A stretch of 64,000 nucleotides of DNA from Odiellus spinosus (taxonomy: Eukaryota; Arthropoda; Arachnida; Opiliones; Phalangiidae). Positions 1 to 53,942 of the stretch are shown here, one piece after another. Numbering within the stretch: position 1 is the stretch's first letter; the number at the start of each line of letters is the position of its first letter. Below the pieces are notes generated by a model that saw nothing but the letters and a program-made list of their open reading frames with translations, had not been told where the DNA came from and did not search any database. Location of the stretch: positions 7,860,190-7,924,189 of the forward strand of contig OY987236.1 in the NCBI GenBank assembly GCA_963920705.1, in the 5' to 3' direction. Both the position numbers and the translations under genes were made by a program.

Positions 1-1334
1 GTTAAAATTCAAAGCCACTTCCCGAATGTTTTATTGCTCAAACATGGGTTATTTTTCGAAGCAGATTCTATTAAAAAATACTTCATTTTTCTCTTCACCC
101 TATCTTTATTTTAAATCAATTATTTATTTCAAAGTTAGGCCTAAATTTTTGTTCAAAATTAGGATGAAATGGAGTTTCATGAAATCCAATTTTAAATTGA
201 GGAGCGTTTTCATAAAGATTGTTGAAATTTATATACATATGTCAAAGAAGAAAATTACCGCGACAGTAAAAATACGTATTTCATAATCGCCATAAAATAA
301 GAATTCCCACGTCATCAATATGGTCGGGAAGCTATTGTAGTCTTGTAGAACTTTCAGTTTATTCTCACGCGTTCTGGCACGTGAAAAGGTCGCTTTCGCG
401 GGGTCTTTTTCGTAAAAGTACAGTACTTAATCCAGAAAATTACCTTTCGTATGAAAATTATCGTTAGTTATGTTCCACAAATAAACTACGTCATTTATCG
501 GAAAAAATTACAAATATTTTTGACATTTTCATTTTGAACGCGTCAAGCCAGACGTTTACAATTTTTAATATGGCGTTTTAGAAGTATTTTAAAAATTAAA
601 AAAAAAAAATTAAAAAAATGGAAACAGCCTTTATTGAAACTGTACGGTCGTAACCAGAAGAATTGTTTTTTTTTACTGTTGTTGATCCCATAGACAGGTC
701 TGCATACTCTTAATCTTAAGTCTCAGTATGACTCCTTCATAGCCTCCCTTTTCGAACAGGCGTATATTTTTTAGTTTGGATAGTGTTAAAAATAGAAAAA
801 TAATTGATCCGGTACTCACTTCGAGCTTGTTTGAGAAGAGTTCATAATCAAAGGTACTACTTTTATTCCCCATTTAGTTTAAGGTTGCTTATTACTCCGC
901 GGTATCATTGACTCTCTTAATTTTTCATAATCATGTAAATTACGGTTCAATTCGAATTTTTTTATTCTCTCGATTGAGGCTAAACCTCCGCCTAAACTCT
1001 GGTTCAAAAGCAATTTGAATAATAGCGTAATCATGGGGCGGATTGCTACAAAATGTTAAGTCTCTTAGGAATAAAGTAATTTTTGCAAAATGTTTTTGAA
1101 AATTGGGTAGTTTTTCCGAGAATAAACCCTCGATCTGAAACGATTTTGGGTAATCTCTTTATTCTTGAATGATTCATTTCAAGTTTCTAATTGAATTTTT
1201 AATCGTTTTTAAGGTTTTTTTTATTGGTTTTTGATATGGTTAACGTTTTCCTAGGAATTTTATGAGTCTCATGTTTATTGTGTGACCCACACTAAGCCTT
1301 GTATAAATGACCCTCTTTATAGAGGGGACACAAA
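1..1334. other. Non-coding, no supported feature
   Basis: AT-rich text with a decayed TTAA-MITE end near 90-110. Short frames at 26-286 (+) and 673-873 (-) have no signature. Confidence 0.6.
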
Positions 1335-1598
1335 AGCTGCGTTCAAACTAAGCCTTGGAATCGATTTAAACCGTTTCCAAACGTTTCGTTTGAGTCGTGT
1401 GAACGGGAAACTGTATTTTCTCGAATCGATTTGATTCAATTTCTCGAAACTGCTTCGGGAACCAGTTTCATATCGATTCGGTTTCAACAACCGATGGTTG
1501 AAGCTACGATAAATCGGTTAAAACGATTCCTGACGATTTGAATAACGGTTTTATTTTTCACTTACAAATCATTAAGAAATTATAGTGTGACCTTAGCT
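1335..1598. mobile_element. AGCTGCG/AGCTACG palindromic MITE, degraded copy
   Basis: It begins AGCTGCGTTCAAACTAAGCC and ends TAGTGTGACCTTAGCT. The interior has the family's repeated AATCGATTT, GTGTGAACGGGAAAC and CGAAACTGCTTCGGGAACC blocks. The GTGAACACGTGACG segment is deleted and the right part has decayed. Confidence 0.75.
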
Positions 1599-1980
1599 TT
1601 TATTTTAAGACGTTTTCAAATCGGTTCCAATGTTTTAAAGCTAATGATTCCATTTTGGGTTAAATTGAAGAATAGCTGCCTCACCTCAAATAGATTCCTT
1701 GGTTATTTTTGCCTATTTCAACACAAATCATATTTAATACAAAATCATTAAAATCATTTAAAAAAATTGCATAACTTATAATTGGGCATGCCGTTTTGAT
1801 GATCGCATAATTAGTTATGACGCCAAGTATTACTATTTTCGCTATATAGGTTAGGTTATTTTAGACTGTTTAATTTTTAATTTTAATATTTTCTAACGAT
1901 AGTATTTTTTCTTAGAAATTAATGTACTCCGAGTCAAATCCAAGCCCTATATTCATTGGATAATCAATTATAAATTTCTG

Positions 1981-2050
1981 TGACGTCACGTACTCCTAAT
2001 CACGCGCGTATATAAACTTACGACGTCAACAGCCTTTCCACCTAATTGGT
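1981..2050 (+). promoter_or_regulatory. CRE plus TATA promoter-like site
   Basis: TGACGTCACG at 1981-1990 is followed by GTATATAAAC at 2008-2017 and CGACGTCAAC at 2021-2030. CRE about 25 bases before TATA is a common animal promoter layout. No coding start with support follows within 500 bases. Confidence 0.3.
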
Positions 2051-2497
2051 GTTAGGGATAATATTTATTCTTGTAGACCGTTTTTCCAATTAACTCACTA
2101 ACTACGAATTCGAGTCTAAAATAATTAGTGACAGTTTTATGGTCCGCGTAATTCAAGATTAATAATGTAACTAATGAGAAGTTTATCACCACGAAGAGGT
2201 AGAGAAACTTTGTATATAGCAGTATACAACCTTATTTAGAGTAAAGATTTCCTTAGAGATGGTTTTTTAAAGGGAGGATGAAGATTAAAAAAAAAGACTT
2301 GTTCGCGTATTAAAACTTGCGAAAATATCGGAAAAGATTCTGATTTTTGTATTCAATTTAAATGGAAATCTTAGACTAATCAAAACACTCCCCACCTTTG
2401 GCTTCATTTTCAAAGAGTATGCCGCAGCAAGTGTCACTTGATTAGTTTTACTTTTAATTAAATACCAAAAGATTCTTAATTTTAATAATATTAAAAT

Positions 2498-2625
2498 CAG
2501 AAGCCGATGAATCCCTGATCCATATAGCGCTCTTCTCTATTTGGGGTAAATTTTTCCTCTTTTTACTAGCTCGCGAGGGACCTATTCATACTACAAAAAA
2601 TTGTAAATTCTCTATCTCTTCTGGA
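2498..2625. mobile_element. CAGAAGCC-ended MITE, old left-half remnant
   Basis: CAGAAGCCGATGAATCCCTG followed by CATATAGCGCTCTTCTCT and GGGACCTATTCATACT parallels the left half of the complete copies with many substitutions. The right half is missing. Confidence 0.6.
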
Positions 2626-3146
2626 GGAAGGGCTTCGAGACATGTAAGATGCCAATCCTCTTTAAAAGAAGGATCCAGAGCCTTAGCGTTCCCACGCGTT
2701 CGATACTTTCAAGGACAAACTTGGGATTTTGTCTTTTAGATATAGGATCCGGCTAGTTTCAGCTCCCTTAAATTCCATTCTAAATATGTGTTATATTTAT
2801 CTTCAAGTGGAAATTGCGTGCTTCTTTGAGTAAAAACATTGTGTGTTCAACTGCCTCTACTGATTCCATTTTTTCAAAACTTAACTTCAACTTAGAATAA
2901 TGAAGTTGGTGAGAACCTGAACCTATCGTTTTTTACCTCCCACAAAATAAGAAAATCATGGTGTGTTTTTTCACGGTATCAAATGAAATAAACTCTTCTG
3001 CTCCTAGCCAATGAAGTACACCCACAAACATTTTTCCCAGTAAGGTTACTTTTGGCGTGACAGTCGATTGATCGAATTTCAACTCTCGCACCGCAAATAA
3101 CTAAATACCGTACAAATATCGGGTTTTTTTTTAAACTTAACCCCAT

Positions 3147-3483
3147 CAGAAGCCGATGAAACCCTCCTTTGAAGTCTACTACTCTAATGTTCCATATAGC
3201 GCGCCTCTGTGTATGGGTAAAATTCCCAATTTTACGAGATCGGAGGGGTCCTACTTCATACTCCCTGTCTACGGAAAATTGGAAATTCTCTCTCTCCACA
3301 AACGTCGACGTTTTTTGGACGAACTCCAAGGCTGCTAGAGATATTCGCTCGACTAGCTCCCGCTCCGAAAACATCTACCGTTAGGAGGCGTTCGAATCGC
3401 GTTTTTTGAAACTAACCCATACAGAGAGGGGTAGACAAGACCAGGGAGTAATAGACTTCAAAGGAGGGTTTCATCGGCTTCTG
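3147..3483. mobile_element. CAGAAGCC-ended MITE, complete, 7-bp target duplication
   Basis: It starts CAGAAGCCGATGAAACCC and ends with the exact mirror GGGTTTCATCGGCTTCTG; the inverted match extends through CTTTGAAGTCTA. It is flanked on both sides by ACCCCAT (3140-3146 and 3484-3490), a perfect 7-bp target duplication. The interior has conserved blocks (CATATAGCGC, GGAAATTCTCTCTCTCCAC, CGTCGACGTTTTTTGGACG). Overlapping open frames on both strands are repeat by-products. A 7-bp duplication with 5'-CA ends would suit the P or hAT-like groups, but I cannot decide. Confidence 0.9.
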
Positions 3484-3534
3484 ACCCCATGCATTAGACA
3501 GGAGTAAACTAAACCCGAAAATAGACTTCAAAGG

Positions 3535-3591
3535 ATGGCTTCTGGAAAATTCGATAAAAAAAATCACTTTTTCTCTTCACCCTCCCTTTAA
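3535..3591. mobile_element. TTAA MITE right-end fragment
   Basis: TTCGATAAAAAAAATCAC, then CTCTTCACCCTCCCTTTAA, matches the terminal ~55 bases of a TTAA element. A similar, more decayed end (CTCTTCACCCTATCTTTA) lies near 90-110. Confidence 0.45.
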
Positions 3592-4144
3592 TGTTAAATT
3601 TTACGATAAGCAAGGTTGAGGAGCACTATAGTAAATGTCTCACGTAGATTATGCAACACTATTGAGGCTATACTAAGGTTACATCTTTATATCGAATAAG
3701 GTTTATACAATATATTAATACACGCTGTCAAATTAAGAGGGAATCCGATGGAAGAGAAATTGTCCGATTATTACGCGTCAAGATTTCTCGACTATATATT
3801 AATGGTTTTCAATATATTTTGTCATCTATTCTACATAGGGCTTTTAAACAATTAACCTTAATTTTCGTCTTAAAATCAATTATTATAGATAGAATTTCGG
3901 CCTAATATTCCGTTGTCACTAGTGATCTATTTGACCCGTAAAGTTATTCAATATTTCAATTAGGTTCGATAATGTTTCTTGGGTTTAATAAGTCTAATTT
4001 ATATATTACGTTTGAATAAATTCTGCATTAATAACAGATCACCAAATATTCTGTTAACATATTACATTGAATTTAAGTGTATTTTCATTTTAAATACTGT
4101 CTTCAAAATTTAGAGGGAGGATTAAGAGAAAAATGCTTCTTCTA

Positions 4145-4514
4145 TTAAAGGGAGAATGCAACCTAACAGCAAGTGATTTTTACCGATTCATTATCGTTAA
4201 AATAGGCCTAATACATCAGTGAGAAAAACTCCAAACAACTATTAAACTAGAAATAAATTTAAAACTAACCTTGAAAATAGGCTTAGGGAAATTCATGGAC
4301 ATCATGACTTTCTTTGCATTAAAGGATCAGCAACTAATGAGTAAAGGCCAGTTATAATGGTGAGAACTCCATGAGACTTCCAATTTAACATTCAATTGGT
4401 CGCTGACCCATCATTGCGAAGAAATTCAGCATCTCCATGAATTCAGCTAAGCCTATTTTCCCGATAAATTTTAAATTTATTTCTAGGATAGTTTAATATA
4501 TGTTTGTAAAAACG
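4145..4514. mobile_element. TTAA foldback MITE, left end intact, right end lost
   Basis: It starts TTAAAGGGAGAATGCAACC and continues with the family arm (AGTGATTTT, AATAGGCCTAAT, AATAAATTTAAAAC). The centre carries the 'catggacatcatgac' to 'agcatctccatgaattcagc' inverted repeat that typifies this family. The mirrored terminus is missing beyond about 4514, so the copy is truncated. No coding capacity. Confidence 0.8.
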
Positions 4515-5026
4515 TGTTTCCCATTTTTTTGGGAAAATTATGAAATTGTCTCCTAATAATTGTTATCCATGAAAACTGCTATGATCACTTGATAAAATTA
4601 GTTCTGTTAAAGTTAGCTTCGTATTGTACACGTTAATTTTTTCATTTACACAAAAAGACTCGCCCCAAAATAGAAAATGTTTCTTCTAATAAATTAATAT
4701 TTGGAAACTTGAATCGTTATTTTAGTATCCCTTTAATCAGCGCATAGCATCGTGAATTTCGCTTTGGATCCTATAAGACCTTGGGAGTAAAAATTGGGAA
4801 TCGAAATGTTTTAGATATTTATGTAAGCTAAAAATCTTTTTTTTCAAGAGAGCCAAAAATCCCATTGAAAATAGATAAATTTTTTTCGTACTCTATTTTG
4901 TAAAACTATATTCGACGTTTTTTCCATAAACCTACGTTGCTATCTTTAGAACTTAAAAGTGGTTGCGTGTTCTAGACTAGTATGTCTGTCCCCGCTTGTT
5001 TGTTCTCAGGAGAGTTTGGGAACATC

Positions 5027-5138
5027 TTATTTATATACAGTGTACAGGAAGTAGAGTAAGGGAAGTGGGAATCTAACTGAGAATGTCGTCTGTCAGTTTT
5101 ATTTCCGTCATATCCTTATTTTTTTTCTTTAACGGGTG
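5027..5138 (+). other. TATA-like site followed by a short signal-peptide-like frame
   Basis: TTATTTATATACAG at about 5027-5040 precedes ATG at 5083, which encodes MSSVSFISVISLFFFFNG before TGA. GG-GTGACC at the end could be a donor, making this a signal-peptide exon. The run of Phe comes from a T-rich stretch, so chance is likely. Confidence 0.15.
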
Positions 5139-5384
5139 ACCGAACAAGTCTCCGTATAAAAGCTTAGAGGAATTAGGTAGAGGAGTCGCCAACTTCTCCA
5201 ACTATCTCTGATTCCATAGTTTAAGAATAGATTAACTTAAAAAATCTGCCTTAAACTGGCTTTTCACTGGGAAAAATAAAAATAAAAAACTTTACAAAAT
5301 CGGAACTTTTTTGGGTTTCTACCAAAAGTCTAAAACCGTTAAATCGATACGTTCCGAACTGCCTTCAAAGCGACAAAAGCTTAG

Positions 5385-5681
5385 AGCTACGGTCACACTA
5401 GCATTTCTTAATCGATTTGAAACGGTAAAATCAAACCGATATTCAAATCGCCAGGAATCGTTTTAAGCGTCACGTGTTCACGCATTTTCTTTATAAATCG
5501 ATTTATCGTACCTTCATCCATTGGTTGTTGAAACCGAATCGGTATGAAACTGGTTCCCGAAGTAGTTTCGAGAAATCGAATCAAATCAATTCGATAAAAG
5601 ACGGTTTCCCATTCACACTATTCCAGCGAAAAGTTTTTAAAACGGTATAAATCGATTCCAGGGCATAGTATGAACGCAGTT
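5385..5681. mobile_element. AGCTACG palindromic MITE, complete
   Basis: It starts AGCTACGGTCACACTAGC and ends CATAGTATGAACGCAGT, in reverse orientation relative to the 1.3-kb copy. It contains CGTCACGTGTTCACGC and GGTTGTTGAAACCGAATCGG. No coding frame of its own. Confidence 0.8.
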
Positions 5682-6748
5682 CTTAAGGAGGTGAGATACA
5701 TTTGCCCAAAATCTTAAAAATAAAGCGAATAAAATTCTATTTGATATCACAAATGATTTCTGTAATCGTAATGAACGCCAATAGTTTAGTATTTTTGGAT
5801 AGACACCCGTAATTTTGAAAAGGCGTTAATCCTTGGCTACGGCCAAACCATTTTTAGGAAATAACTATCTTATGACGAGATTTTGAGGAGAAAGGAAAAC
5901 ACTTTTTTACCTTTTCTGCTGATTTTCCACCCACTGAATCGCAAGAAAAACTAACCAGTCTCTTTTGAACTTTTAGATTAGGTTTTTTCCAACTCTTCAC
6001 AAAACGGTGAATGATAAAAAGTTACAATTTTAAATACTTTGTAACTTCTGATATTTTAAAGTCAGAAGGAGAAAGGAACGTTTAACATTTTGATATTTCA
6101 TTTTTTGAGGAGATTATTTATTTGAACCATTGCAAACCGGCCAAATTGAAGGGAAAATGCTCAACTGGCAACCCTGAAAGTTTGAAGCTCTGGGCTCAGT
6201 GATCTTGACAACCCCTGAAAACTGTCTGTCGTTGATTTTCCATATAATTCCTCCAAGATAAAACCTCCTTATGACTTGTCTCTCATTTTCCTTAGATACA
6301 CTCTTGAAAGTCGTATAAATCGGCATAGAGAAACAGGTTTTTTACTGAAAAATTAGGTCCAATCTAAGGTTGTAACTCTTTTTTTTTATAGTCTTTTCCG
6401 ATGTCTTGGTTTATTATTATTTTTTATTTATTTTTTCTTATTGACCTCCTTTACTTTCGACGGATGACTTTCTGAAGGTATATTGAAACGAATGATACAT
6501 TTTGTTGTTTACAATTAAAATTCGTGCATATAGGGAAGAGTGTGGTTTTTTAGATTTAAACCGAGAATATAAATATACAGTTTGTTTAAAAAATGGTGGG
6601 TAGGACCGAGCTACAATGGGTTCTATGGATTATTTTAAGTCGAAAATTTATTATTTATTAAATTTTTAGATCAAATGCTATATTTTATATAACTATATTC
6701 TTGCCTTCGAACTTTGTAGGTGCTAAAAGTTTGACCCAGTGACCCCAA

Positions 6749-7301
6749 ACTTTTAAACCGTTTCAAAACGTTTCGCTAGAGTCGTGTAAATAGGAATCCG
6801 CCTTTTCTAGAATCGATTTGATTAGATTTCTCGAAACTGCTTCGGGAACCATTTTCATACCGATTCGGTTTCAACAACCGAATAAATCTATTTATAAAGA
6901 TAATGCGTGAACACGTGACGCTTAAAACAATTCCTAGCGATTTGAATATCAGTTTAGCTACGGTCACACTAGCATTTCTTAATCGATTTGAAACGGTAAA
7001 ATCAAACCGATATTCAAATGCTAGAAATCGTTTTGAGCGTCACGTGTTCACACATTATCTGTATAAATCGATTTATCGTAGCTTCATGTATCGGTTGTTG
7101 AAACCGAATCGGTACGAAATTGGTTCCCGAAGCAGTTTCGAGAAATCGAATCAAATCGATTCGAGAAAAGACGGTTTCCCGTTCACACGACTCTAGCTAA
7201 ACGTTTTGAAACGGTTTAAATCGATTCCAAGGCCTAGTATGAACGCAGCTTTTGATTTTACCGTTTCAAATCGATTAAGAAATGCTATTGGAACCGTAGC
7301 T
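6749..7301. mobile_element. Palindromic MITE (outer copy) interrupted by a second copy
   Basis: The outer element runs from TTTTAAACCGTTTCAAAACG (left end lost) to GGAACCGTAGCT at 7301. It is split after GAATATCAGTTT, and its sequence resumes as TTTGATTTTACCG after the inserted element at 6956-7250. Joined, it matches the 46.4-kb copy. The frames of 97 and 76 codons here are repeat by-products. Confidence 0.8.
6956..7250. mobile_element. Palindromic MITE nested inside an older copy, 3-bp target duplication
   Basis: It extends from AGCTACGGTCACACTAG to GTATGAACGCAGCT, in inverted orientation relative to its host copy. TTT is present on both sides (6953-6955, 7251-7253) where the uninterrupted family sequence has a single TTT (CGGTTTGATTTT), so the ends and a 3-bp duplication can be read directly. 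Confidence 0.85.
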
Positions 7302-8001
7302 AAATTGACCTTTCCAAAACGATTTTGTTTTATGGAGAATTTCGGTGTAGTGCACTTAAAAACCTCCGCGCTTCTGGGGTTACATTTTATTTTTAAAGAA
7401 CCTTTTATTTTGCGAATTTCAATTGATTCCTTTTAAACAAAGTCAAAGGGGAGACATTGTAAACTTTATATAACAGCGAAACTTTTAGTTATCCGTATTA
7501 TAATCTCGTGGGATTTTTCACCGCCCTTATTTTCCGCGAACCAGTATACCTAAATCCTTTTTCCATTTTTACTCTTCCGCTGGGAAATGGCGGTGGAATT
7601 AAATATTAGATAGTGAAGGAAACTTTGGATATATGTCGTCTGTGTATATTGGTGTGTATTATTTTAGCTTTATACTCCTGTTCCCTGAGAGATAGAACGT
7701 TTTCGTAATTCTCCTCGTCTACGCTTTCGATATTACTCAAAATAAATTTTAATTTAGGTAGGAATGTAGGTTAATCAGATATTGGTCCGATTTGTTTTCC
7801 TTATAAAGTTAATATTTTATATAACCCCTCTGTTTTCTCGGTCCACATAAGGTTGAAATATTGGCCACCCTCTCGGGTTTTCGAATTCTGAAATTTTTAG
7901 TGCTGTTTACTATAATTTGATATGGGGATATTCCGTAAAGAAAGCCGTGTATGTTTAATTCCAATTAAACGAAGGCTGAAGAGGAAAATATGAATTGAGA
8001 A

Positions 8002-8024
8002 AATATATATATATATATATATAT
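8002..8024. repeat. AT dinucleotide microsatellite
   Basis: Alternating AT over about 22 bases. A similar tract lies at 16609-16629, and a GA tract at about 33990-34003. Confidence 0.95.
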
Positions 8025-8080
8025 TTGGCATTCAATTAACAGGAGAACCTCCGACTAATCTAAAGACTCCTCACCTAAGA

Positions 8081-8488
8081 ACGAGATTTAGCGTTAGTGA
8101 CAGACACAGATATTGTTACATAGAGAATATTACTGTATATTTTGATTTTGAAGCAGAGATATCCGCTCTTTACGTCATTGTTTTATGCTTGAAACAAACT
8201 ATCATCCAAGGGACACAATTATGCGCGCGAAAATAACGAGATTTAGCGTTAGTGACAGACACAGACATTGTTACATGGATAATACTACTGTATATTTTGA
8301 TTTTGAAGCAGAGATATCCGCTCTTTACGTCATTGTTTTATACTTGAAACAAACCATCATCATTTAGGAACACAATTATGCGTGTGAAAATAATGAAGAA
8401 CGAGATTTAGCGTTAGTGACAGACAGATATTGTTACATAGAGAATAATACTGTTTATATTGATTTTAATGCAGAGATATCCGCTCGTA
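8081..8488. repeat. Tandem repeat, two full and one partial ~155-164 bp units
   Basis: Units start with ACGAGATTTAGCGTTAGTG at 8081, 8236 and 8400 (the last is partial). All contain GACAGACACAGA or its shortened form, ATATTGTTACATAG-like words and GCAGAGATATCCGCTC. Units differ by small substitutions and a short insertion. A 60-codon frame in unit 2 is not conserved as coding. Confidence 0.85.
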
Positions 8489-24062: not shown

Positions 24063-24599
24063 GTAAATTTTTTTATTTGCTCGAAACTCGATTAGATATA
24101 ACTTAGTAGTTTTTATTTGCACGAAACTGTAAGAAACAGTTGCTTTTAGCTTTCAGGTGTCGATGTGGTATGTTTCCGATTATATATATATGAACCTAAA
24201 TCGTTTAGCCAATAAGTGCAACGAAGGAGAAATGTATATAAGCTTAATATCGATGTAATACGTAACATTCCTCCCCCAACCCCCGAAGTCCGAAGTCCGG
24301 TTCCTTCCTTTTCATTTCTCTCATCGGCAAGCTCTCTCCCCCCTTTGTTTTCTTAGGATATGAGCATATACTCGAACAATATAAGACCTACTATGTCTTT
24401 ACGCCAACTGGAATAATATTTTCTTTATGGTTATATCGATATATCGTAATGTAAAGAATAATATATAGCTAGTAATTGCGCTGTCGTCTATTTATATTAC
24501 CGCATGAAGAATATTAATTAAAGGAAGAATGAATGTCGTTAGATCTATTTAGATTTTCGTTAAACGCATGTTGGTAAACATATTTTAAAACAGACGTAC

Positions 24600-24784
24600 A
24601 TGCTTTTAAAATCTTTAAGCCTAATTGAAAAACTATACATATTATTCCTTCCAAAATCGTTAAGCCTAATTTGAAACTATGCACATTCATGCTTCCAAAA
24701 TCGTTTAGCCTAATTTGAAACTATGCACATTCATGCTTCCAAAATCGATAAGCCTACTTTGAAAAAATGCAATTCATGCTCCGA
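24600..24784. repeat. Tandem repeat of about 44 bp, four units
   Basis: Units have the form AAAATCGTTAAGCCTAATTTG plus AACTATGCACATTCATGCTTCC. The two middle units are nearly identical and the outer ones have decayed. The TAAGCCTAATTT word continues irregularly to about 25320. Confidence 0.8.
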
Positions 24785-25832
24785 CAGATCGTTAATGGTA
24801 GTTTCCAACGATGCATAAACACTTTCCAATGTTTAAGTATATTCTGTTAAGTATAATTTACGTTATCTTCTAAAGACGCCGAGTTTTATAAGAAGTACAT
24901 TAACATTTCCCTAAGTCAAAGTACATTAACACATTTCAAATTTGGTAAGCCTATTTTCAAAGTCATTACAGTCGATAAATTCTATCTATTAACGCCTGTC
25001 AAAAACGCTGAGTCAAACATGATTCGTAAAACTGTAAGCCTTTTTTTAGATTGTGGTATTAACACTTCTCAATGTCAACCGATTAGCCTAGTTTCAGTTG
25101 CGGCTTTAACACTACCGAAATAGTATTAATTAGCTAGATACACAATCCAACGTTGACGTACAATATAAAATATTTTTATCCCTGACTTCCACCACATGAG
25201 CCCAATTAATAATGTCAATGATTAAAACTTCCCAAAGTCGATCGCTAAGCCTAATTTCAAATATACATTCGCGCCAACGAAGTCACTAAGCCCAATTTTC
25301 AAAAATATTTGCGGTTATAGCCTAATCTCCATCCAAAAGTCAAACTTGGGTCAAAAAACAAGCTTAAAATATTCATTGAACCGTAGCAAAAGTTTACCCG
25401 TGAAGTTTTGGAAGATTTTTGGGTGAATAACTTTGCTTTATTTAACTTTCTATGACTATACTAATCGCGTTATAAGGGAACCTGTAATCCTCTTTGGGCT
25501 TTAAAACTCTATTATAGTAACGAATACATGTAGAGTATTTATTATATAGAAATGGATGCTTTTTGCCTGTCTCACTCTATATGTACTTATTTGAATACCA
25601 CCTTTATTCTCCTATAAAATAGCGAAGCTACTCTTAAGAAAATCAATCACGAGTAAGGAAGAGAATCTATGTCTATACGAAAAAGGGGTATTGTTTTGCT
25701 AAGGAAAAATATAAAAGAGTGCGTGAGGGGGTTTTTCAATTAAGTAGAAGCTGTCCTTATCGATAATTAGAAGCTTGTTTCTGCGCTTCTTTAAAGGCAA
25801 AATCTTACCCAAAAAGATATGGTTTGCGAGCT

Positions 25833-35514: not shown

Positions 35515-36299
35515 TGCTAGGATGAAATCGGAGTTTCTTATATGGAGTTGCAATTCTATCTTGCTGCTAGAATATGTTGTTAGTCCAAACTTCAATTGAA
35601 ATAAGACTTGTTCTTAAAGCTTTTAGTCTTTGTATGAAAAAAAAAGGAAAGTTTTACTACTAAAAACAAAGAACTTGTAAAAGAATTACGGACGGATAGA
35701 GAGAAAATCAAAGCGGAAAGAAAAAATCTCCAAATTTGTTCTCTCGGAAAATTTATCCGCCAACTGATTCCATTGTATGGAGTATCTTTCGATGTGATAA
35801 AAGAAACACAGCGATTGTGTAGTGAGATAAAAGACGTTGGTATTCGATATAACCCATCTAATTCTTGCTATTGTCGATCTTTAGTTTAATTTCTTATTCC
35901 AAGATCTTTGAAAAAAGTTTTATTACCCTGAATAGTGGAAATATAGGATCTCTCTCATTAAAATTCAAGGTTTTCGTTTTTCAAAATATTGAAAAATACT
36001 ATAATTTCAACAAATACTGTCCACTTCTATTGAATTCAGGTTTTTACCTTTCCTCTGGGCGTTAGGGAAACACTCCAGTTTCGGTGTCCAAAACAGGACA
36101 AATAATTTCCCAGAAAGTTAACAAAACCCCATATTTAAAGATCCACTCGTCAATGATCTTAAAGGAATGGTGCGGTGTTAAAATATTTTTGCTGCAAACC
36201 CTTTAGTTAAACTCAAAACCAATTTTTCAAGTGTTAAAAAAATTTAAAATTAAGTATATTTTTAAATAAACAATTAAAACAAATTACATTGAGGGCACA

Positions 36300-36583
36300 T
36301 AGGCGCCCGTATGAAGCTTTCCTGTAAAGCAAGAGCGCATTCGATACGTCACTTCAAGGTTTTTATTTCGGCAATAATCTGATTGGCCAAAGTAACTTGG
36401 CTCAGCTTTTACTCAATGGTAAAGTTGACTACTACGCGCTTGAACGTTAAATCGACGACAGGTTATAACGGCAGTGCTCGCCAGTCTAACGAACGGGACG
36501 CCGACTGAAGGAGCATCTAACCCCGGTAAGCTGTAGCCTAGGCCTAACTCCGTCGGCGATTCGGACTCTCGGAGAGTATCGTC
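36300..36583 (+). promoter_or_regulatory. Putative internal promoter of the transposon's plus-strand gene
   Basis: This stretch is clearly more GC-rich than its surroundings. It contains an inverted CCAAT box (GATTGGCCAA near 36382), a GGTTATAACGG motif with an AACGG core (near 36461-36471), and several CpG-containing words just before the ATG at 36584. There is no clear TATA box. The position immediately upstream of a transposon gene start, within the element's ends, is what suggests a promoter. Confidence 0.35.
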
Positions 36584-36730
36584 ATGCCGCGAATAGATCC
36601 GTTTGAAGTTGAACCAGTGTACACGGAAGAAGAACTTTTAATTAGAGATAGACTACAGGAAGAGCGTAATAATAATGACGGTATCGAAAATTTAATTGAC
36701 ATAGACCAGATGAAAGAAAATTGCACCTGA
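36584..36730 (+). pseudogene. N-terminal fragment resembling P2X7-C-domain (ballast-type) proteins
   Basis: ATG at 36584 opens a 48-codon frame ending in TGA at 36728-36730. It is acidic and charged: a PFEVEPVYTEEEL stretch near the N-terminus is followed by an arginine/glutamate-rich segment and an Asn run. Many invertebrate predictions annotated 'P2X purinoceptor 7-like' begin in a similar way before their cysteine-rich zinc domain. I recall this pattern from memory and cannot align it here. The frame stops where the sequence meets the converging THAP exon (last shared bases about 36725-36730), so the cysteine-rich domain is absent. The upstream 36300-36580 stretch is GC-richer and has an ATTGG box and TAACGG motifs, as a promoter would. 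Alternative: a chance frame, since 48 codons is short. Confidence 0.4.
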
Positions 36731-36918
36731 CAAACTCTGTAATCCAACTTCTTCGTAGGCAAAGGCTTAGTATAATACGCGGCTTTCACTGTTTCTTTAG
36801 CATATTTTAGCCATTTTGACGCGAGTTCGGGGTACTTTAAATGATCAGGAACCGTATAAAAACTTAGTCCAAACCGAGAACTAAAATTTTTGCATTCTTT
36901 TATAATACAACTTGGCAT
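36727..36918 (-). CDS. THAP zinc-finger domain, first exon (partial gene)
   Basis: Starting at the ATG at 36918, 64 codons read as an N-terminal THAP domain, the C2CH zinc-dependent DNA-binding module of P-element and Kolobok-type transposases and of THAP proteins. It opens with Met-Pro-Ser-Cys. Zinc-ligand cysteines are at residues 4 and 9, a FYTVP stretch (the usual phe/pro region) at 20-24, the invariant tryptophan at 36, and the third cysteine at 63. The histidine expected three residues later is missing if one reads on: the codon is CAA (Gln). However, codon 64 (CAG) is followed directly by GTGCAA, a plausible donor, so the ligand probably lay in the next exon. Cys9 to Cys63 is near the upper spacing limit for THAP. 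The frame runs on to 36544 but becomes unlike THAP after the donor. Upstream (minus strand, about 36920-37030) there are two CCAAT boxes. No later exon remains in the element. Confidence 0.65.
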
Positions 36919-37080
36919 TTTGAACTTTCTTTAAAACAACACCGATTAAAAAACGAAGGATTCTAGACTTTACTGTCTCAGACTCTCTCCCCTCGGAGTC
37001 TCATTTCATTGGTTTATAAGTTATTTCTATTGGCCTATCAGATTGCTAGCCTGGCCAAGCACGACAGAGAAGTTTAGAAT
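36919..37080 (-). promoter_or_regulatory. Putative promoter and 5' UTR of the THAP exon
   Basis: Reading the minus strand toward the THAP ATG, there are two CCAAT motifs (in GGCCAATAG and AACCAATGA) followed by about 100 bases with an out-of-phase CT/GA-rich stretch and a leader ending AAAGTTCAAA before ATG. No TATA box is obvious. The call rests on position and on the paired CCAAT boxes. Confidence 0.3.
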
Positions 37081-37875
37081 TAGGGGCAAAAGGGCCACGT
37101 CAATACTAAATTTATTTTTAACTATAAAATTATTATTATTATTAAAAATTAATTTTGAGTTATAAATTTCTGTTGCCAAGAGTGCTATTGACCCTTAGAG
37201 GCAAAAAAACTTTATGGGTGAACCATTCCTTTAAGTCCCGTTTTCAATCAAGGTTTTTTCGTGCTTTTGCTGTCTCTTTTCGAAGACAAGCTTAATATCA
37301 TTCATTTATTATTAATTTATAATTAATTCATTTAGATATTCGCTTCTCTGTCATTTGAAGCCTCTTAACGTGAATTAAGATTTAAGCTATAAACATTCTT
37401 TTAATGTTGTAATTATCTCTGCATTAGAATTAAGTTCATTATTGGTTATAGACCGAGACGAGAAACAGATAAATATTTAAATATAATTAATTTTCGTTCG
37501 AAAATTGAAAATAAAATACATTTTTACCCGGATTTGATCCTTCCAAGGGACTCTAGGCTGTAATAATCAGAAAGAAGATTTTTGTTGGATAGGTTTGTGT
37601 TCCGAAACGGATAAGTTACCCTAGAACCATACAATAAGAATAAAAAGCAAGAAAAAAAATCAACTATACGGCTGAGATATCGTATTTGTTTTACAATTTG
37701 TGCACGGCTTGTTTCGAACGTTTGAGGATAGGATAGAGGGGAGGCACTTAAAAACATCTGGTACTATTTTTAAAACGACTTTTCAAATATACCATGTAGC
37801 ACCAAACGTAGCCACCGATTTTCTTCATCCATTATTTTGTCGCTCCGTTTGATACGAAAGACCAAAAGAATGGTT

Positions 37876-51928: not shown

Positions 51929-53032
51929 TTAAATCGAAAGCAACCGTATCACGTGCCAAGACGCGCTAGATTCAACTGTAGCTCTATAACAGCCTTAATG
52001 ATATGACGTAGTATTGCGAGAAAGTTTTGTTTTAAAAAAATAGAAAATACGTAATTTTTTAATCATTATTTAACGATATTTCTGAAAATCCTACTCGTAT
52101 TCTATTTGGATCTATTGAAAAGTCACTTTAATTAAATGTAAATTAACTAGAAACGAAATTTACCTCAAGTTCTATTTGTTCACATAATCAATATTTAGTT
52201 TTAATGCTTAATTAATTTCTAACATTTGATTAACTAAGCTTAATTTTAGTCTTAATATTAGATAGTAAATATTTAATTACATTTTGTTTATATTAATTAA
52301 ATTACGAAAAAAAATATCATTTCGCAATTGGGCCTTTTTCTATTTTACAAATGCTAATTGAAAAACTAATCAACATTAACCTAGGAGGTGAATTACAATT
52401 GTAGTTCGTGGAAAAATTCCAAACGTATATGTTCGAATTCTATTAAGATTACAAAATATTTTATTTAATCCATTAAAAAAAGGGTTAATACAAAAGATAA
52501 CGAAAATAAAAAAGTGGGGAAAAAAATAATCAAGTGCCAAGTTCGCGGGCAACACTGATAAGTGACATTACGATATTTTTTTTGAAATCATAGAAAAAAG
52601 AAAATCGAAATTTTCTATCGATAGCTTGAATATAAATGTTAGGGAGTAAACTTTTTTTTTTTTCCGATCTGGTGTCTCGACTCGCGATCCAGAAAAGTTT
52701 AAATTTCAATGGATTGTTACATAAATTATATTCTGATGTGAATCATTTAAAGTTTCGGGAAATGTAATAGAAAGGTCGATATCGATGACAGCTTCCAAAT
52801 TTAATATTTGTTAGGCCTAAAGTGGGTGTTGACTTTACACGATGACGTCTAGTTTTCAGTCAAATTGCTCGTTATCAGCAATCTAATTCTAAAAGAAATG
52901 GAGATCGGTTACAAACTAGTTAGAGGTAAATCAAATTATCTTAAGAACTGATAGATATATACTTATAAATAGACAACTGAGAACAATTCATCTCTCAAAG
53001 ACCTTTCCAAAAATGTTGACCTTAAGAGTCAC

Positions 53033-53368
53033 CAGAAGCCGATGAAACCCTCCTTTGAAGTCTACTACTCCAATGTTCCATATAGTGCTCCTCTCTGTAT
53101 GGGTAAAATTCCCAATTTTACGAGTTAGAAGGGGTGCTACTTCATCCCCCTGTCTACGGAAAATTGGAAATTCTCTCTCTCCACAAACGACGACGTTTTT
53201 TGGACGAACTCCAAGGCTGCTAGAGATATTCGCTCGACGAGCTCCCGCTCCGAAAACATCTACCGTTAGGAGGCGTACGAATCGCGCCCTTTGAGAATAA
53301 CCCATACAGAGAGGGGTAGACAAGACCCGGGAGTAATAGACTTCTAATGAGGGTTTCATCGGCTTCTG
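53033..53368. mobile_element. CAGAAGCC-ended MITE, complete
   Basis: The 336-bp copy has both ends (CAGAAGCCGATGAAACCC; ATGAGGGTTTCATCGGCTTCTG with one changed base). Flanks AGAGTCAC and ATAGAGTG do not form a clean duplication, so one side has decayed. The longest open frame in the window (176 codons, minus, 52988-53518) merely reads through this repeat and its flanks. Confidence 0.85.
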
Positions 53369-53942
53369 ATAGAGTGAAATATAGACAGAGTGGTGGATGA
53401 CGTGACCACTACCCGTTTTAGTTCTACAGTTTTCCCACCAGATGGAATTAATGATTATCCCAATTAAGCCCCGTAGTCCCAGGGGTTTAACCCCTCTATT
53501 ATTTATTTCGAGTAACATTTTAGCTAGTATGACGTCACATAACGTGACTTCTCGACTTGGTCTGTATTTTACTCTGATATTAATTAATCATAGGCCTAAA
53601 AAGGAGTGACCTTTCAGGTCATCTACGAAATTATAACGTCACATATCGTCTAATGACAATACTCTAAATTATTTAAATTACTTTTTTACGTGTTATAAGT
53701 AACGTATTCTAATAATCAAAGAGAAATTGCTGGATCTAACCAATGAAGGTGTAATTATGTCTTTATACAATAAATAAGTAAAGGAAGGGGAAAGCTGTTT
53801 GTTGAGTTTTAACTCTATATGGCGGAGTGTTCTAAGTTTGACCTGAATCAGCGGCATTCATTTGAATCTTGAATTTACGTTAGTCCGGTTCCTCTCGCTC
53901 GATCGCTACAATCAGCTCCCCAGAATCAGTTCGTGGACGAGT

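Follow-up and report, generated by a model that had tools for sequence, protein, structure and literature searches.

An internally deleted Kolobok-type element of Odiellus spinosus with the first parts of a THAP-transposase gene and a KolX gene

The TTAA-bounded element and its gene fragments

The window, meaning the whole 64,000-nt stretch of the Odiellus spinosus genome that was analysed, contains an element bounded by TTAA that carries the beginnings of two converging genes (Table 1). The element is a young, internally deleted non-autonomous member of a large family. Its termini read TTAA followed by AGGAATGGT at one end and ACCATTCCT followed by TTAA at the other, of the form 5'-RR/YY-3'; the inverted ends on TTAA that an earlier note on this DNA had pointed out were recovered as exact 13-nt copies. 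A 35-nt imperfect inverted repeat, together with an inner 18-nt pair, supports these ends as the true termini.

Table 1. Coordinates of the element and its parts in the window
Feature	Position	Strand	Basis
Whole non-autonomous Kolobok-type element	36159..37234		TTAA to TTAA, 1076 bp; identity with a 12.1-kb copy 566/571 at its KolX end and 516/534 at its THAP end
Left TTAA target-site copy	36159..36162		Sequence; single TTAA at empty sites of two other copies
Left terminal inverted repeat TTAAAGGAATGGT	36159..36171	+	13 nt exact including TTAA; as 36158-36192, 35 nt at 77%
Subterminal inverted repeat, left arm	36210..36227	+	18 nt, 89%
KolX gene 5' fragment	36584..36730	+	48 codons and a junction-made stop; precedes the ballast domain; 100% identity to the 12.1-kb copy's 217-aa frame
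Deletion junction	36722..36729		8-bp TGCACCTG, on both sides in the long copy
THAP-transposase gene 5' fragment	36722..36918	-	THAP domain cut off ahead of the C2CH His
Subterminal inverted repeat, right arm	37144..37161	-	Pairs with 36210..36227
Right terminal inverted repeat	37222..37234	-	Reverse complement of TTAAAGGAATGGT
Right TTAA target-site copy	37231..37234		Sequence

On the minus strand, a frame opening with Met at 36918 has Cys4, Cys9, Trp36, and Cys63, and scores 23.0 bits against the THAP family (PF05485), just below the cut-off of 23.9. This fragment, the plus-strand frame of 48 codons, and the tail-to-tail meeting of the two at 36722-36729 are real, as the earlier note had read them. 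Taken alone, the 48 codons matched no Pfam family at E 1, because the ballast domain begins at about the end of the fragment; their identity as P2X7-C-like therefore rests on a longer relative. Neither fragment would be expected to make a working protein, since the final His of the THAP domain is missing and the KolX part ends short of the ballast domain.

The sequence that flanks the element on the right (37231-37378) is itself a dispersed repeat. Fifteen of 41 other matches to it start at or near the TTAA that adjoins the element (40 of 179 candidates scored), a pattern that may place the window copy on the margin of an older TTAA repeat. Elsewhere in the window, a tandem repeat with a 44-bp unit (4.5 copies) occupies 24599-24795, a tRNA search found none, and the sole frame of at least 150 aa (52991-53587) had no Pfam match at E 1.

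A long relative, deletion junctions, and the family in the genome

Among the candidates scored, both gene fragments lie in longer frames at one place, C1:2191584-2203692, a 12.1-kb copy (12,109 bp) with the same ends as the window element. There the THAP frame goes on to CQVHFSDDCF without an intron and then into transposase frames; the 48 codons, on the opposite strand, are the start of a 217-aa frame. Pfam models identify a complete THAP domain with its C2CH ligands (PF05485, 41.0 bits against a cut-off of 23.9) and a Mutator-like transposase (PF20700, 44.9 bits against 26.5). The copy carries two converging genes, one for a THAP-domain transposase, putatively of DDE type, and the other for KolX, a P2X7-ballast protein. 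The search for longer copies with the same ends that the earlier note had proposed was successful in this respect, and the full element with two genes that it expected is what the long copy contains. The next-closest transposase match was 60% identical (100 of 269 candidates scored).

A nested Ty3/Gypsy-like element with gag- and pol-like frames splits the long copy (positions 1146-8480 of locus L069; C1:2192545-2199879). Its 318-bp direct repeats are 100% identical, which suggests a recent interruption of the transposase gene. The retroelement was left in place and each piece of the copy was searched separately; subtraction gives a Kolobok portion of about 4.8 kb. No intact parent was seen, the one long family copy found being that split by the retroelement.

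Comparison with this copy locates a deletion scar in the window element: the 8-bp TGCACCTG stands on both sides in the long copy where the parts are joined in the window. The splice donor that had been proposed after the THAP "exon" does not hold, as the GT that follows CAG is part of the deletion junction and the frame of the long copy runs on as CQVHF. Across 30 distinct copies with junctions to the same parent, 26 have the window's junction, three a second (1046-1047 bp), and one a third (846 bp); the 846-bp class has lost more of both genes than the window class. One further locus (L077, C18:3232300-3234700; copy at C18:3232664, 1704 bp) has the window's junction and, next to it, an insert of about 620 bp, the edges of which show an 8-bp overlap, as a target duplication would give.

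The family is widespread in the 443-Mb genome. Its 13-nt end motif occurs at 594 sites (293 forward, 301 reverse), as compared with 23 (14 and 9) for a control, the pattern read backwards. Within the first 100 of the 594 sites, 76 form 38 inverted pairs and 24 are unpaired; end-to-end lengths of the pairs are 846 bp (13 pairs), 1076 bp (12), 1056 bp (three), and 844 bp (two), with eight single lengths that include 12,109 bp. The window's 64-residue THAP fragment has at least 150 genome matches (257 candidates, 150 of them scored), 137 of these 150 being at least 95% identical, and its 48-codon frame has at least 149 (150 of 226 candidates scored). Copies differ by a mean of 0.55% (maximum 1.21%) among 16 fetched copies of 1075-1077 bp and by 0.68% (maximum 2.43%) among 26 with the window's junction, figures biased towards similar copies because those fetched were mostly best matches.

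A duplicated TTAA target is indicated by the window ends and by empty sites of two other copies. Comparison of 37 flank pairs within the fetched loci, some of them from overlapping loci, gave empty sites with a single TTAA at two loci, L039 (with its neighbour L040) and L068; each match is gap-free over 244 nt with one mismatch (243/244), and both lie inside local repeats. Five loci (L005, L050, L056, L063, and L065) gave partial or weaker matches across the insertion site, and no empty site for the window copy's own flanks was found in the genome. L039 and L040 (C2:28204127 and C2:28209757) hold 1047-bp-class copies with the same flanks in short-tandem-repeat arrays, and the two were perhaps duplicated together.

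Pieces of both genes are present at four further loci (L071, L072, L075, and L076). L075 joins THAP and transposase in one 838-aa frame (THAP 44.2 bits), with a KolX first-part frame opposite; its 793-aa transposase reached no Pfam transposase cut-off (best 18.7 bits, against 27.6). L076 has 20-nt identical inverted ends 4.2 kb apart, and its transposase frames are broken. In both L075 and L076, the first-part KolX frame matched no Pfam family at E 1 and is called KolX by likeness to the element's own. L071 has 18-nt ends TTAAAGGGTTACCGACAG, with scores of 58.9 bits for THAP and 36.2 bits for P2RX7_C, and L072 has P2RX7_C matches of 26.5 and 31.8 bits, a transposase match, and a THAP-like frame. 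In the 12.1-kb copy and L075, the transposase blocks DGRFDS, TDRHIQ, DVWH, and ESYHS were picked out by eye, in an alignment (A2) that is poor outside conserved blocks; the catalytic residues within them are putative.

Two of these loci merit separate description. L071 1027-5629 (C2:16220026-16224628) represents a 4.6-kb family with both genes; pairs of transposase and P2RX7_C matches with its 1506-base separation occur 10 times, an identity of spacing from which the family has probably expanded recently. At L072 2201-8815 (C1:15085200-15091814), fragments of a Kolobok-like family with two genes form a large inverted duplication.

KolX as a P2X7-ballast protein and its transposase neighbours

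Of the two profile checks proposed in the earlier note, that for THAP succeeded in the long copy, and that for P2RX7_C fell short: the element's KolX scored 18.4 and 19.1 bits, below the curated cut-off of 23.5. Given this weak score, a separate profile was built that left out the element's KolX and drew on nine further P2RX7_C frames from this genome. Against it the element's KolX reached 49.2 bits (best domain 46.6, residues 83-186), as compared with 15.0 bits for the best of 3000 shuffled controls. The likeness to P2X7-C claimed for the plus-strand gene is therefore found in the longer relative and not in the 48 codons alone, and the inference of a two-gene element with one P2X7-C-like gene is supported.

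All seven zinc cysteines are present in the element's KolX. In a ten-row alignment (A3), Cys49, Cys52, Cys82, Cys103, and Cys173 are invariant and Cys47 and Cys83 are each found in nine of ten rows (L010 has Arg at Cys47, and L011 a gap at Cys83). A second alignment, of 25 distinct rows, has Cys47 in 21, Cys49, Cys83, and Cys103 in 23, and Cys173 in all 25, with Cys52 and Cys82 of the element opposite gaps. Because the two alignments disagree, two of the cysteine columns are alignment-dependent. Querying the PDB with the ten-row profile, which is dominated by the nine rows other than the element's KolX, returned four distinct sequences at E up to 1, all of them P2X7 (best E 6e-23); positions 9-127 of the 127 in the profile align with P2X7 residues 469-591, cysteine pattern included. 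A single-sequence search of the PDB with the element's KolX found nothing.

The EPVYTEEEL-type start read in the earlier note found no support as a general mark of KolX: the motif EP.[YF]...E was found at none of 30 other P2RX7_C loci, in sequence reaching about 1500 bases upstream only. First parts of KolX from L070, L075, and L076 show pairwise dN of 0.36-0.40 and dS of at least 2.5, the latter near saturation (infinite for one pair) and unreliable. Set against this dS, the dN values suggest that KolX is under purifying selection.

Genome-wide, 93 P2RX7_C matches (150 of 159 candidates scored) merged into 89 places, and 114 Kolobok-like transposase matches into 75. A Kolobok-like transposase match lies within 3 kb of 38 of the 89 P2RX7_C places (37 convergent), within 6 kb of 44 (42 convergent, that is, tail to tail), and within 12 kb of 49 (44 convergent); the chance expectation for co-location within 6 kb is about 0.2% of places. 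Control transposases, 39 PF20700 places outside the Kolobok-like set, had a P2RX7_C place within 6 kb in no case and within 12 kb in one. The co-located places are often copies of one family; within 6 kb there are 24 different separations, 22 of them convergent, some neighbouring values of which may still represent one family. The count misses the subfamily of L075 and L076, because their KolX first-part frames match no Pfam family. P2RX7_C places adjoin Kolobok-like transposases far more often than expected by chance. The earlier suggestion that "P2X7-like" predictions are transposon genes is supported in this genome by the 44 places within 6 kb of a transposase match; counting against it in detail, 40 of the 89 had no transposase match within 12 kb.

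PF20700 was also considered as a general Kolobok detector and rejected, only two of its 41 merged places falling at the Kolobok-like set.

Origin of the element and comparison with known systems

Passages of Kojima & Bao (2022; PMC9587614) describe Kol0 Kolobok elements as encoding a transposase and KolX, give 5'-RR and YY-3' termini as a Kolobok criterion, and report KolX, which matches the cytoplasmic ballast of P2X7, as the source of that ballast, with P2X7 and probably Nanor deriving from KolX. The family studied here likewise has KolX as its second protein, with P2X7 ballast sequence and the seven zinc cysteines. We hold with high confidence that the window element belongs to the KolX-bearing Kol0 lineage of Kolobok, as a young non-autonomous DNA transposon formed by internal deletion of a two-gene parent; the superfamily assignment is drawn from the TTAA target, the termini, the THAP domain, the motif blocks, and KolX.

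The proposed parent would have had TTAAAGGAATGGT at its ends and, between them, a THAP-domain transposase gene, putatively of DDE type, running inward from one end and a KolX gene running inward from the other. Sequence comparison shows that a deletion between two 8-bp copies of TGCACCTG left only the two ends, the sequence preceding each gene, and each gene's first codons; it probably arose by incomplete repair of an excision gap. Family biology and the clean TTAA empty sites suggest that the derivative was then moved in trans by the parent's transposase, cut and paste into TTAA. It spread to well over a hundred copies.

A piggyBac-type element would also use TTAA, and we consider such an assignment very improbable. 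In passages of PMC9587614, the 5'-RR/YY-3' form of the ends (TTAA-AGG..CCT-TTAA) is that of Kolobok as opposed to piggyBac, and piggyBac versions of KolX are without most of the seven cysteines found in the element's own. The THAP domain on the transposase gene and the score with the Mutator-like transposase model also argue against piggyBac.

The THAP gene start and the stretch upstream of it are kept in the 1076- and 1046-bp classes, as might be expected if the derivative had been retained for making a truncated THAP repressor. The P-element derivative KP makes a truncated repressor. Such retention is nonetheless highly unlikely here: the truncated domain is without its last zinc ligand, and the 846-bp class is about as common despite the deeper cuts (13 versus 12 listed pairs). 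Least probable of all, to the point of being negligible, is that a spliced exon of a host THAP gene extending beyond the ends lies between inverted repeats by coincidence; the fragment alone does resemble an exon followed by GT, but 137 of its 150 scored genome matches are at least 95% identical, the frame continues unbroken past the supposed donor inside the long copy and in L075, and the junction is a deletion scar.

Under the preferred reading, an internally deleted Kolobok element, the family shows a two-gene DNA transposon decaying through internal deletions into short parasites of itself. The link between KolX and P2X7 was already published in 2022 (Kojima & Bao, PMC9587614); new here are one family, its deletion scars, and a genome-wide co-location count. 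That count, made in one whole genome, is independently in line with the published view of the end domain of a major inflammatory receptor as a transposon protein, and it serves as a warning that invertebrate "P2X7-like" gene predictions can be transposon genes. Ballast genes across animals have been described, with a proposed ancestral synteny, in passages of Rump et al. (2020; PMC7016195), the main text of which has no match to "transpos". We offer as a tentative and rather doubtful extension that KolX is a co-adapted partner required by these transposases, and that current or former transposon genes make up nearly all free-standing invertebrate P2X7-like ballast genes, those of the "ancestral synteny" in Rump et al. 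(2020) among them. The need for such a partner, if true, would explain why diverged families keep KolX facing the transposase, seemingly under purifying selection.

Among known systems, Kol0 elements of the Kolobok-1_XT type, as described in passages of PMC9587614, share with this family the TTAA target, RR..YY ends, and KolX, and probably also a DDE-type transposase with a DxxH block. Here, by contrast, the genes are tail to tail, the orientation of KolX being absent from the passages of that paper compared, and the transposase carries THAP, a word that does not occur in its main text. Xenopus T2-MITEs are defined by a TTAA target and terminal AGGRR (PMC6004289, in part), and the window element has AGGAA and TTAA at both ends; it resembles T2-MITE/XKol elements in being non-autonomous, and the Xenopus Kolobok transposases described there have DDE, THAP, and H2CH. 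The window element differs in keeping the starts of both genes. With the C-terminal ballast of P2X7 (Pfam P2RX7_C; the ZCD of Rump et al., 2020, PMC7016195, in the passages compared), the KolX profile aligns and shares the cysteine pattern, whereas KolX is encoded inside a transposon and stands without the channel part.
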